From positions 1 through 53,611 of the forward strand of contig JAUQQR010000005.1 of the NCBI GenBank assembly GCA_030549835.1: DNA of 53,611 bases, in the 5' to 3' direction. Shown here in pieces: positions 12,601-17,003 of the stretch; positions within the stretch are counted from its first letter, which is position 1; each line of letters begins with the position of its first letter. Position numbers and translations under genes: made by a program. This DNA comes from Thermoproteota archaeon (lineage in GTDB: Archaea; Thermoproteota; Thermoprotei_A; Sulfolobales; Acidilobaceae). The notes under the pieces were generated by a model. It did no database searches, was not told where the DNA came from, and saw nothing but the letters and a program-made list of their open reading frames with translations.

Positions 12601-13986
12601 ATGTTGATGATAGCTGAGATCTTAGTCTATATCACACTTGTTTCATCCCTCATAATACCTTTAATGGATGCTCTAGGCTATGGTAGGAGTAGGGCGGTAG
12701 TTATAGTGTCTTGGGTAGGCGTAGCATCATTTACTATTGCATCTATAATACTACTATCTACTAGTAGTGTAAATGAATTCTATGCCGGCTTAGTTGTTCA
12801 CGATAGCTTCACATCTCTAATCCTACTAGGTGCATCTATAGCAGCTATTCTGGTATTGATAGCTGTAAATATGGATGCTATAGTGTGGCCTAGTAATCCA
12901 GCATTCTACAGCTTAATTCCTTTAATACTATTTGGTCTCTTCTATCTCGCTGGTGCTAATAGTATTATAACTGTTATAGCATCATGGCTTCTAGTATCTG
13001 TTGCTAGCTATGTTATGGTAGCTTTGCCAGGTGATAGAGAGAGTAGACTTGCAGCTATTAGATATGTATTTATAGGTGCAACTGCTACACTAATAATAGC
13101 TTTATGGGCCTCAGCAACCCTAATTGGAGCCGGTATAGAATTGATAACACCTATAAAACCTAGAGAGTTTAAGTCTGAAGCATTCCTAGTATTATCATTA
13201 GCTCTTGCAGCTTTTGGATTTAAACTAGGAGTAGTACCCTTCCACTGGTGGCTTCCAAGTGTATATGGTAGGGCTGATGGGAGACCTATAGCTATAGTAG
13301 CTGGAATAGTTAAGCTTGGTTTTATAGCTTTAATTGTTAGGATTATATCTGAAAGTTTTGCCGGCTCTCTAGATGCTGCTTTTATAATAGCTCTTATAGC
13401 TATAGCTACAATGACATATGGTAATATAGCTGCTCTTACAACCCTAGACCTTCAGAGACTCCTAGCATATAGTAGTATAGCACACGTAGGCTATATTATA
13501 TCAGCATTAACAGTTATAATAGCTGAGCCTAATAGCCCAGTTAGTAAGTTAGCCTTAGCTGGAGTAGCTATACAGTCTATAGCCTACACTTTAGCTAAGA
13601 CACCACTATTCACTCTAGTAGCGGAAGCTGGTAGAGAGTTAGAGGGAGAGCTTAGAGGCCTCTTAGCTAGAGATAATACTACAGCTATCTCTTCAACAAT
13701 ACTACTAGCAAGCCTACTAGGAATACCGCCACTAATAGGATTCTGGGGTAAATTATTCATATTCCTACCACTAGCAAGCTACTCTATAATACTACTAATA
13801 GTAGCGTTAGTTAATAGCGGTATAAGCTCAGTATACTATATTAGGGCTTTAAGAAACATAGTAACACCAGCTGCTACTCAACAAAGTAGAATAATAAGGG
13901 ATAGATATAGAGCTGTTGTAGTAATATCAGCTATAGCAACAATAATACTAGGACTCATAGCACCAATTATTATAAGACTTATTTAA
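12601..13986 (+). CDS. nuoN: Complex I-like antiporter subunit (NuoN-type)
   Basis: The third Mrp-like subunit; 461 residues and about 13-14 helices. It has the usual FGFKLGVVPFHWWLPSVYGRADG segment (helix 7-8 Lys and His) and a helix 12 AYTLAKTPLF segment. Helix 5 reads ITVIASWLLVSVASYVM, without an obvious acidic residue where M and L have Glu. It starts at ATG 12601, 4 bp after nuoL and behind a GGTGAT, and is the last gene of the operon. The subunits seen are A, B, C, D, H, I, J, K, M, L and N; E, F and G are absent. Confidence 0.92.
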   Translation: MLMIAEILVYITLVSSLIIPLMDALGYGRSRAVVIVSWVGVASFTIASIILLSTSSVNEFYAGLVVHDSFTSLILLGASIAAILVLIAVNMDAIVWPSNPAFYSLIPLILFGLFYLAGANSIITVIASWLLVSVASYVMVALPGDRESRLAAIRYVFIGATATLIIALWASATLIGAGIELITPIKPREFKSEAFLVLSLALAAFGFKLGVVPFHWWLPSVYGRADGRPIAIVAGIVKLGFIALIVRIISESFAGSLDAAFIIALIAIATMTYGNIAALTTLDLQRLLAYSSIAHVGYIISALTVIIAEPNSPVSKLALAGVAIQSIAYTLAKTPLFTLVAEAGRELEGELRGLLARDNTTAISSTILLASLLGIPPLIGFWGKLFIFLPLASYSIILLIVALVNSGISSVYYIRALRNIVTPAATQQSRIIRDRYRAVVVISAIATIILGLIAPIIIRLI

Positions 13987-14039: not shown

Positions 14040-14100
14040 TTGTGTCAGATTGTGATCCTCTCTTCACCATATTCAGTCTGGCTAGGATTCTTCATCCATA
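14040..14100 (-). ncRNA. C/D box sRNA (2'-O-methylation guide)
   Basis: On the minus strand the order is box C ATGAAGA (14095-14089), a 12-nt guide, box D' CTGA (14076-14073), a 5-nt spacer, box C' GTGAAGA (14067-14061), a 12-nt guide, and box D CTGA (14048-14045). Two guides of exactly 12 nt and a short symmetrical D'-C' spacer are the known architecture of archaeal dual-guide sRNAs. Both C boxes share the same deviation from RUGAUGA. By the D+5 rule the target nucleotides would be U (5'-AUUGUGAUCCUC) and G (5'-UCUGGCUAGGAU). I could not place these targets. It lies between two convergent genes, with short TTCTAT/ATAGAA flanks that can pair. Confidence 0.78.
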
Positions 14101-14140
14101 GAATATCTACTATGTGAAGACTTAAATATATGTGGATTTC

Positions 14141-14575
14141 CTAAGATTTCTCAACGGCTCTCTCTGCATTTTTTAATGCTTCCTCTAAGACGAGTCTAGC
14201 TTCATTTCTCAGATTATCGATTGGGATTTGTGGAAAGTCTCTAAGTGTATCTACTATAAGTTTCTCGATAGCTTCCTGAGTAATTGTTATAGTATAGTGT
14301 ATATCTGGAGGAGTATAAGCTTTTAGAACTTCTATGGCATATGTTAGAGCTAGAGGGGTTTTTACTAGCTCACTATTAACATAACCTAATATGAGCATTG
14401 TCTCTAGTCTTAAAGCTATTCTCTCTAAGATATCATTCATAGCAATAAGTTTAATAGCTGTATCCTTATCGCCAAGCGCTTTAAGCCTCATGATAGATGT
14501 TCTAATTTTAACTTGAGCTCTCCTAATATCACTCAGTATTTTGAATATACTTGATCTAAAATGACTTATGTACAC
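14141..14575 (-). CDS. Short ESCRT-III (CdvB/Snf7)-like protein
   Basis: A 144-residue, entirely helical, charged protein. The stretch ILERIALRLETMLILGYV followed by a long helix resembles the alpha2-alpha3 core of archaeal CdvB paralogues (compare the family pattern VALRLETVKDLGDV). Those proteins form membrane-remodelling filaments in cell division or vesicle release. The first helical hairpin looks about 25 residues shorter than in usual CdvB proteins, and no winged-helix or MIM motif follows, so it would be a minimal paralogue. GTG start. A TTTAAATA box about 20-25 bp upstream suggests a leaderless message. It is not beside cdvA or cdvC here. Function inferred. Confidence 0.55.
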   Translation of the reverse strand: MYISHFRSSIFKILSDIRRAQVKIRTSIMRLKALGDKDTAIKLIAMNDILERIALRLETMLILGYVNSELVKTPLALTYAIEVLKAYTPPDIHYTITITQEAIEKLIVDTLRDFPQIPIDNLRNEARLVLEEALKNAERAVEKS

Positions 14576-14675: not shown

Positions 14676-17003
14676 TTAACCTAGCCACCTATAAATAAAT
14701 ACTATAACAGCATAATCTTGTACTCTATCAGTTGTAGTCTCGCTTGCGAAACAGGATACTATAATAGCTTCTGGGGAAAACCTCTTAGACCCACCAATAT
14801 TGAGTACTGGTATTGGCTGGCCCATGGCTGGATCGTAGACCATAGGTATTACATTTACATTCCTATCCGATAGTGTTGGACATTTACTCGCTATCCCTTT
14901 ATTAGGTATATGTGTTAATCCTTCAAGACCAAACTTGTATATTAGAGAGTTTAGAACTAATCTTACATTACCCTCAGGTGACCCTATGAATCCTGGAAAG
15001 TGTAGTGACCTAAACTGACTACTAATTACCTGGCTTGAGTATTCTGTACCGAATGGTGATGGGGCGAACGGGTCAATCCTATAACCTATTCTAAGCATTT
15101 GGAATGATTTAGGGAAATCTGCAACACCATGCATTACTATGAAGTTAGCTCCTTGAATTTGCTGAGTGAATATTGGCATAGCAAACACGTCTGTAGTATT
15201 TTGTAATCTTACTAGTATATAGCCCTCATAGAATACTATGTAGGTATTATTTGGTTTAGCTTTAAATAATTGTAGTAGTTCAGATGCTTCATCCTCGTCT
15301 CCTGTTAGTATTCTAGCTAATATTCTTATTTGAGTCTCATTCCATGTAGATCCGTCTGCTACTGAGGGCCTCCTGCCTATTACTGAGATCCAGTAGCCGT
15401 AGTCCCACCAGCTTACTATTAGAGCGTCTTCGCTAGTATTAGCTCTTATATATTCTAGGGCTCTAATCCATGCATCATTAATGGGTACTAGGGCCTCTCC
15501 TCCTCTAAAGAATACTGATAAACCTGAGGTTAGTATCTGTGGTGCCCTAAGACTATTAACATCATAGCTTGACTTAGCGTAGTAGGCTGAGCTTAGTAAA
15601 ACTATTACTATTATTACTAGCGCTATGAATAGCCTCATATCATCTACTACAATTGACCCCCTACGCTTCCCCTCTAATACTATCTTCTCACTAGACATCC
15701 ATAACCCTACTGCTAAGCCTGCAGTTAGTGAAGTGTAGTATGATGCTACTTGTAGGAAGTAAGCCATATTCTTAGCAGCATATGTTATGATTAGAGCCAT
15801 TATGAATAAGCTTAGGATTAAGTGATCAACGGGATACCTCCTCCCACTATAAAGCTTATAGGCATAATACATTAAGCCTATAACCGTTATTAATAGTGAT
15901 ACACCAATCTCTCTAAAAAGCATACTCCATGCTAGAGAAGCGTGCTCAGCTACACTCTCAGCTAGAGGACTAAACTCTCTAATACCGAGAGCTAGTAGGA
16001 GCCTGCCAGGAACACTTAGAGTACCCGTAACTATTAAAGCTAACCCTCCAATTATGCCTGAAGCTAGAATCCAGGCATATAAGAGCCTATTAAATGGAAA
16101 TAGTTTGGCGCCTAACCCTGATTTATCCCAGAAACTTATAATAGCATATAGTATAAGTGACGCTATAACGCTAAAACCTAAACCTGAGATGAAGTACTCA
16201 TAGCCAACTCCGGGATAAATCGAGGCTAACACTATGAAGGGTATAGATATGAGAGAGTATACTAAAAGTCTACTTTTATCAGATCCTCCATGTATTAGGG
16301 GATCAAGCAGTATTATTAGGGTAAAGGAGACAGTTATAAAATGGTAGCCACCCCATATAAAAGATATGAACCCCGCAGACAAACCTGCAAGGATAGAGTA
16401 TAATATCCTAGCCTTACCTCTACTAGAGAGAGCTAAGGCTAAGAGTATATAGAATAAAGTCATAAATACTAATGCTATAACCATTTTCTCAACAAAACCT
16501 ACAGTAGTCCTACCTATAGCACCTGGAAGTAGTGAGAAGAGAGCTACAGATACTAGCCCACCTAATCTAGACCCTGTTAAAACCCATACTAATACGTAGC
16601 TGAGGAGAGCGGCTAAAATCCCAGCAAATACTGGAAATAATGCTATCCAATCTTTTAATGTAATTCCAGTAAATTTAACTAAATGATATGTAGCTGTAGC
16701 TATCCATGCAGTACCAATATATTCCTGGCTGAGGAAGTTTCTTCCATATGGATACCAGAATAACTTAGATCCTCTAAGCTCATTAAAGCTAAATAATCCA
16801 TTAGTATAGAATTGCTCAGCTATCCAGTACATTATCCAAGGATCTGCCTCATCAAGTTCTAATCCATACTTTATAGCTGGGAGTATTCTAAGATAAAAGC
16901 CTAATGCCAATAGTAGGATTAATGATGTAATTGCTATTATTACTGAAATTCTAGCTATAAACAAGATAAATCTAGCGTATCCCTGGATTGAGGGATTACT
17001 CAA
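14676..17003 (-). CDS. aglB: Oligosaccharyltransferase STT3/AglB
   Basis: The catalytic subunit that moves lipid-linked glycan to Asn in N-X-S/T sequons on the outer face of the membrane; 775 residues. The N-terminal half has about 13 membrane helices. The first outer loop carries LDEADPWIMYW with the metal-binding Asp. TTVGFVEKM in the middle fits the TIxE-like region. The soluble domain starts near residue 510 and contains the family signature SWWDYGYW (Trp-Trp-Asp at about 532). TTG start, with GGGAGG about 10 nt upstream. It is divergent from cPGS. The length is shorter than many AglB proteins but complete. Confidence 0.95.
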   Translation of the reverse strand: MSNPSIQGYARFILFIARISVIIAITSLILLLALGFYLRILPAIKYGLELDEADPWIMYWIAEQFYTNGLFSFNELRGSKLFWYPYGRNFLSQEYIGTAWIATATYHLVKFTGITLKDWIALFPVFAGILAALLSYVLVWVLTGSRLGGLVSVALFSLLPGAIGRTTVGFVEKMVIALVFMTLFYILLALALSSRGKARILYSILAGLSAGFISFIWGGYHFITVSFTLIILLDPLIHGGSDKSRLLVYSLISIPFIVLASIYPGVGYEYFISGLGFSVIASLILYAIISFWDKSGLGAKLFPFNRLLYAWILASGIIGGLALIVTGTLSVPGRLLLALGIREFSPLAESVAEHASLAWSMLFREIGVSLLITVIGLMYYAYKLYSGRRYPVDHLILSLFIMALIITYAAKNMAYFLQVASYYTSLTAGLAVGLWMSSEKIVLEGKRRGSIVVDDMRLFIALVIIVIVLLSSAYYAKSSYDVNSLRAPQILTSGLSVFFRGGEALVPINDAWIRALEYIRANTSEDALIVSWWDYGYWISVIGRRPSVADGSTWNETQIRILARILTGDEDEASELLQLFKAKPNNTYIVFYEGYILVRLQNTTDVFAMPIFTQQIQGANFIVMHGVADFPKSFQMLRIGYRIDPFAPSPFGTEYSSQVISSQFRSLHFPGFIGSPEGNVRLVLNSLIYKFGLEGLTHIPNKGIASKCPTLSDRNVNVIPMVYDPAMGQPIPVLNIGGSKRFSPEAIIVSCFASETTTDRVQDYAVIVFIYRWLG

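Follow-up and report, generated by a model that had tools for sequence, protein, structure and literature searches.

A conserved box C/D sRNA of the Acidilobaceae predicted to guide methylation of tRNA-Pro

The window analyzed here, a stretch of 53,611 nucleotides from a Thermoproteota archaeon of the family Acidilobaceae (GCA_030549835.1, contig JAUQQR010000005.1), contains a 154-bp gap between the stop codon of a nuoN-like gene at 13986 and the end of a minus-strand open reading frame at 14141. Within this gap, the minus strand reads, from 14095 to 14045, ATGAAGA-ATCCTAGCCAGA-CTGA-ATATG-GTGAAGA-GAGGATCACAAT-CTGA. The C, D', C', and D boxes are all present in order, and the sole deviation from RUGAUGA/CUGA is the replacement of U5 by A in both C and C'. 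A sequence-only reading had proposed a dual-guide box C/D sRNA at this place, and its layout of boxes and spacers and its length for the gap are both exact. The mature sRNA is predicted to be probably about 55 to 60 nt long, and the TATA-like stretch TATATTTAAG, which lies 35 nt before the C box, is a possible promoter of its own.

Table 1. Position of the sRNA, its parts, and the adjoining genes in the window
Feature	Position	Strand	Basis or remark
Box C/D sRNA, from the C box through the D box	14045..14095	-	Sequence reading, pattern test
C box ATGAAGA	14089..14095	-	Kink-turn 3b is A
D' guide ATCCTAGCCAGA, 12 nt	14077..14088	-	11 bp with tRNA-Pro D arm (UGG and GGG isoacceptors); predicted target G19
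D' box CTGA	14073..14076	-	Sequence reading
D'-C' linker ATATG, 5 nt	Between D' box and C' box	-	Sequence reading
C' box GTGAAGA	14061..14067	-	Sequence reading
D guide GAGGATCACAAT, 12 nt	14049..14060	-	8 bp (one G.U) with tRNA-Pro(UGG) nt 42-49; predicted target U44
D box CTGA	14045..14048	-	Kink-turn 3n is U, partner of 3b (A)
TATA-like stretch TATATTTAAG	14121..14130	-	Sequence reading; 35 nt before C box
ORF144 (144 aa), divergent ESCRT-III/CdvB-like, conserved upstream neighbor	14141..14575	-	Profile search, synteny
STT3/AglB oligosaccharyltransferase, conserved neighbor	14676..17003	-	Gene comparison across relatives
nuoN-like gene, convergent, neighbor not conserved in relatives	12601..13986	+	Gene comparison across relatives

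When the window was searched with a box-and-spacer pattern allowing up to two mismatches, a single match was obtained, which had none, and 100 dinucleotide shuffles of the window yielded no match at all, bearing out the view that the arrangement is unlikely to have arisen by chance. No Rfam family matched the sRNA at the curated threshold. At a relaxed threshold, the weak same-strand matches over the sRNA all belonged to C/D snoRNA families, the best being sR12 (18.5 bits, E 0.04).

Relatives of the sRNA were found by three routes, namely BLAST, a pattern made from the two guide cores, and a model (R1), and their distribution covers much of the window's family. A 141-base BLAST query, which used no tRNA assumption, matched two genomes of the same genus over the sRNA body only (query positions 53 to 107 in G002 and 54 to 100 in G003) and gave weaker matches elsewhere in the family. 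Of 214 genomes of the order, 32 matched the guide-core pattern, and 28 of these belong to the window's own family; the reversed control matched one genome; a few matches without a C box (L082 and L092) are probably due to chance. A stricter pattern, scanned across 84,980 named species with the window's own record excluded, matched 16, all of them archaeal and with titles mostly naming Acidilobaceae, Aeropyrum, Thermodiscus, or Desulfurococcales. Model R1, whose training included the window sequence, matches positions 14040 to 14098 with an E value of 1.8e-13.

In an alignment of 22 sequences, the terminal stem together with the 3b:3n and 4b:4n positions of the kink-turn was paired in 86% of cells, compared with 61% after shuffling. 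The covariation score was 0.642, compared with 0.204 for shuffled alignments, and none of 500 shuffles scored as high; sliding the structure by one column destroyed the signal. This covariation is not circular, because the search pattern contained neither the boxes nor the stem. Conservation of the guide cores, including the retention of the D guide core in 22 of 22 aligned relatives, was partly imposed by the pattern. The structure is thus kept in close relatives, and its conservation and covariation, together with the coherent target described below, support the core of the earlier proposal. Judged from sequence comparison, the minus-strand element at 14095 to 14045 is a real box C/D sRNA.

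The genes next to the sRNA were compared across its relatives. In most of them the sRNA lies directly downstream of the STT3/AglB and ORF144 genes, usually on the same strand, the exceptions being G005, G008, and G012, in which it lies farther off or past another gene. The examined flanks of relatives held no NuoN match, and the earlier placement of the sRNA at the 3' end of a nuo operon therefore describes an incidental setting. ORF144 and STT3/AglB are syntenic across much of the window's family. ORF144 had no match in Pfam, and a profile of it built from ten relatives matched the archaeal ESCRT-III proteins CdvB2 (9s97, E 1.8e-10) and CdvB (9s9j, E 6e-5). In three genomes (G002, G006, and G019; loci L087, L090, and L091), the ESCRT-III-like ORF uses the UGA of the C box as its stop codon. 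The close association with ORF144 and this shared stop codon would suit an explanation by chance resemblance, or by a conserved 3' untranslated or protein element of the STT3-ORF144 unit that makes no guide RNA. We consider that explanation very improbable, however, since the D'-C' linkers of relatives differ in length by non-multiples of three, the sRNA and the ORF are on opposite strands in Aeropyrum-like genomes, and the stem and kink-turn covary. Moreover, overlap with the 3' end of an ORF is usual in archaeal C/D sRNAs, and an ORF stop codon overlapping the C box is common (PMC7994747).

In the nomenclature of the kink-turn, position 5 of box C is 3b and position 2 of box D is 3n. The tandem sheared pairs were present as G.A at 1b.1n in 22 of 22 aligned sequences and as A.G at 2b.2n in 20 of 22. 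At 3b:3n, a G-C pair was found in 17 sequences, A-U in two (the window included), C-G in two, and G.U in one, and U:U was absent from all 22. Two species swap 4b-4n from G-C to U-A, and three more relatives, from genus g4, have GUGAUGA or AUGAUGA as box C and CAGA at the place of box D, giving a U-A pair. The sequence-only reading had regarded A5 as a possible lineage-specific variant. The nucleotide is indeed present in both C and C', but it is neither unique to this sRNA, since a further C/D candidate in the genome (contig C44) also has it, nor fixed among relatives, most of which have G5 paired with C2 of box D. On this comparison, A5 is one state of a covarying, mostly Watson-Crick 3b:3n pair. 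Archaeal C/D kink-turns have been described as having a strong propensity, but no requirement, for U:U at this position (PMC5689011). With Watson-Crick pairs at 3b:3n, metal ions by themselves are reported not to bring about folding (PMC4382518); the sRNA should therefore fold only with L7Ae.

To find partners for the guides, we scored each against the 16S and 23S rRNAs and against 43 distinct isoacceptor entries obtained from 44 tRNA matches in the genome. Methylation sites were predicted by the 5-nt rule, and tRNA positions were numbered from the tRNA-Pro cloverleaf. The best duplex of the D' guide was in the D arm of both tRNA-Pro(UGG) and tRNA-Pro(GGG), with 11 contiguous Watson-Crick pairs through guide positions 2 to 12, a score of 11 that shuffled guides reached in 0.1% of trials. 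The best duplex of the D guide was with nucleotides 42 to 49 of tRNA-Pro(UGG), through guide positions 3 to 10. Its score alone is ordinary, as 39% of shuffled guides equaled it somewhere in tRNA plus rRNA; on tRNA-Pro itself, about 1 to 2% did so. The D duplex being short and common by shuffling, assignment of the D target therefore rests on its coincidence with the D' target and on evidence from the family. The two guides find their partner in one tRNA, each with position 5 paired, a result of moderate strength since the D duplex is short. The nucleotides predicted to be methylated are G19 by the D' guide and U44 by the D guide. The G and the U anticipated by the sequence-only reading thus have counterparts in tRNA-Pro, but the exact 12-nt target strings that it gave are absent; tRNA-Pro(UGG) is the best target for both guides, with no full 12-nt match for either.

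Two other targets were rejected. The anticodon arm of tRNA-His was discarded because the tRNA-His of this genome does not fit. Among archaeal C/D guides whose target is known, most pair with rRNA, as do two other C/D candidates of the same genome, but on the correct strands the present guides paired less well with rRNA than with tRNA-Pro, scoring at best 8.5 for D', including a mismatch close to the target, and 7 for D. We therefore give little credence to an rRNA guide here.

The tRNA-Pro(UGG) sequence was read in most of the window's family so that guide and target could be compared. In G002 and G003 the tRNA has GTGATCC and the guide GGATCAC, and elsewhere the tRNA has GTGGTCC and the guide GGACCAC; a U.G pair is tolerated in the duplex of G000 and G005. 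Across relatives, the D duplex is 7 to 10 bp long. In genus g4, a change of the guide to CACGA creates 10 perfect D pairs with tRNA-Pro, a 10-bp duplex found in G008 and G020; these two genomes keep the sRNA although their D' duplex has an A.C mismatch. The occurrence of the sRNA was also associated with the form of the tRNA: it was found in 21 of 28 family members with a matching tRNA-Pro(UGG) D loop, compared with none of nine, by pattern or by model, whose loop is shorter than the guide would need. Several of the seven matching-loop members without the sRNA are incomplete genomes, but genus g12, one of whose genomes is 99% complete, is a genuine exception. The association follows phylogeny except within g1, the genus of the window, which has members of both kinds. 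A guide re-tuned to the short D loop (TACCARG...GGAYCACR) was not clearly enriched relative to the reversed control, and the short-loop relatives seem simply to be without the sRNA.

Model matches in family f9 proved to be a separate C/D RNA (L219 to L238, e.g., L223 and L233) whose guides are TCCTAGTCCAG (D') and GGGATCTCCGGC (D), at an unrelated locus between ribB-like and amidohydrolase-like genes. Both of its guides form perfect duplexes with tRNA-Gly of the same genomes, of 11 bp with the D arm and 12 bp with the 3' anticodon stem/variable region. As with the tRNA-Pro sRNA, the D' guide is directed at the D arm and the D guide at the 3' anticodon stem and variable region, although the tRNA and the locus are different and the f9 duplexes are longer and perfect. 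A coding explanation of the f9 RNA was rejected, as the frame is open in G094 and interrupted by stops in G079. In our analysis, this RNA is the best independent support for both guides being functional.

This evidence bears on the alternative that only the D' guide acts on tRNA-Pro, the D guide being an orphan or having some other target. Such an arrangement would resemble Pyrobaculum, in which sRNAs directed at tRNAs are reviewed as having a tRNA partner for one guide and no target for the other (PMC7994747), and it would fit the D pairing of 7 to 9 bp in most species, since shuffling the D guide often still yields a score of 7.5 somewhere. Set against this are the conserved D core, even allowing for the share imposed by the search, the standing of tRNA-Pro as the best D target in the window's genome, the 10-bp D duplex of G008 and G020, the way the D guide follows the A/G change that tRNA-Pro shows in G002 and G003, and the perfect pairing of the f9 RNA through both guides. 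A single functional guide is accordingly possible but rather unlikely.

Other C/D RNAs came to light during these searches. A looser D'-C'-D pattern, the one pattern search on which our genome-wide census is based, gave five matches in the whole genome and none for the reversed pattern. All five (L185 to L189) are minus-strand matches in their contigs, with none on the plus strand, although the numbers are small. The candidate on contig C26 pairs with 16S rRNA at two sites about 120 nt apart, by 9 and 11 bp, and the one on contig C29 forms an 11-bp D' duplex with 16S rRNA (C26 and C29 correspond to L186 and L187); the C box of these 16S-targeting candidates is GUGAUGA or GUGAGGA. In the candidate on contig C59 (L189), the D guide, ATCCTAGTCCAT, forms a 10-bp duplex with the tRNA-Gly D arm in each of the three isoacceptors. 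Elsewhere, L234 and L229 (in G051 and G175) are C/D-like RNAs that share the D' guide core for tRNA-Pro and have a different D guide, GGGAATCCGCG.

Taken together, these comparisons of guides, targets, and structure suggest, with a probability that we put at about 0.8, that the element is a box C/D sRNA guiding fibrillarin-catalyzed 2'-O-methylation of a single tRNA, tRNA-Pro, at two places. A fibrillarin gene is present in the genome. We infer transcription of the sRNA, its assembly with L7Ae, Nop5, and fibrillarin, the exact nucleotides methylated, and the effect on tRNA-Pro. The C and D ends would fold into one kink-turn and C' and D' into a second, both for L7Ae, and Nop5 and fibrillarin would then join the particle. 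The D' guide would pair with nucleotides 17 to 25 of the D arm and direct a methyl group to G19; the D guide would bind the 3' part of the anticodon stem together with the variable region and direct another to U44. Both nucleotides take part in bridges of the tRNA core, G19-C56 and G26.U44 (PMC7668247), and the likely effect would therefore be a stiffening of tRNA-Pro, or assistance of its folding, at high temperature.

The targeted segments are largely paired in the folded tRNA, and the sRNA would therefore act before or during folding. This makes it a serious rival view that the sRNA serves mainly as a folding clamp or chaperone for tRNA-Pro that grips its D arm and variable region, methylation being of lesser importance or no longer carried out. 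Both guides bind segments of the tRNA core, and chaperone roles have been proposed for double-guide sRNAs (PMC7994747). In some genera, furthermore, the D' box is degenerate (CTTA, CTAA, or GGGA) and the D' guide is still complementary to its target; methylation of G19 may therefore be absent there. In the window, however, the four boxes and two 12-nt spacers have the form that a methylation guide should have, and retention of the guides is in part a product of the search pattern. We judge a role mainly in folding to be unlikely for this sRNA, and prefer the reading that it guides methylation.

The sRNA resembles known archaeal box C/D sRNAs (the sR families and the CD-box snoRNAs of Rfam) in its boxes, spacing, two 12-nt guides, size, and terminal stem and, in relatives, in its overlap with an ORF 3' end. 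It differs in having no Rfam match at threshold and in a 3b:3n pair that is Watson-Crick or G.U in 22 of 22 sequences rather than U:U (PMC5689011). The C/D RNA of the pre-tRNA-Trp intron (sR50; Cm34 and Um39) likewise has both guides on the same tRNA (PMC7994747); that RNA, however, is an intron of its own target and is aimed at the anticodon arm, whereas the tRNA-Pro sRNA is a separate gene aimed at the D arm and variable region. In Sulfolobus acidocaldarius, methylations reported as observed at U34 and G18 of tRNA-Gln also combine the D loop with a second site of one tRNA (PMC7668247), although the tRNA and the second site are different, and the likeness concerns the sites, not guidance by a single sRNA. 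In the literature that we searched, whose reach stopped short of key papers, no report of a tRNA-Pro sRNA or of Gm19 in archaeal tRNA was found. C/D guides directed at tRNAs, even at two sites per tRNA, are already known, and the dual guides for tRNA-Pro and tRNA-Gly are an extension of them.

In a large compilation of archaeal C/D RNAs, tRNA targets were "not compiled" (PMC4644070), and the sRNA described here supplies targets missing from it. If the predicted dual pairing is true, it is also a counterexample to the rule of one guide reported for tRNA-targeting sRNAs (PMC7994747). The covarying Watson-Crick 3b:3n pair offers a natural test of kink-turn rules. More tentatively, and at odds that we would not call favorable, hyperthermophiles of this order may make recurrent use of C/D RNAs that hold the D arm and variable region of a single tRNA (Pro in one family, Gly in the other) with both guides, acting as tRNA-specific folding clamps as well as methylation guides and having a covarying Watson-Crick 3b:3n pair in place of U:U. 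Our reading makes exact predictions, namely Gm19 and Um44 in tRNA-Pro and the matching pair of sites in tRNA-Gly of the second family.
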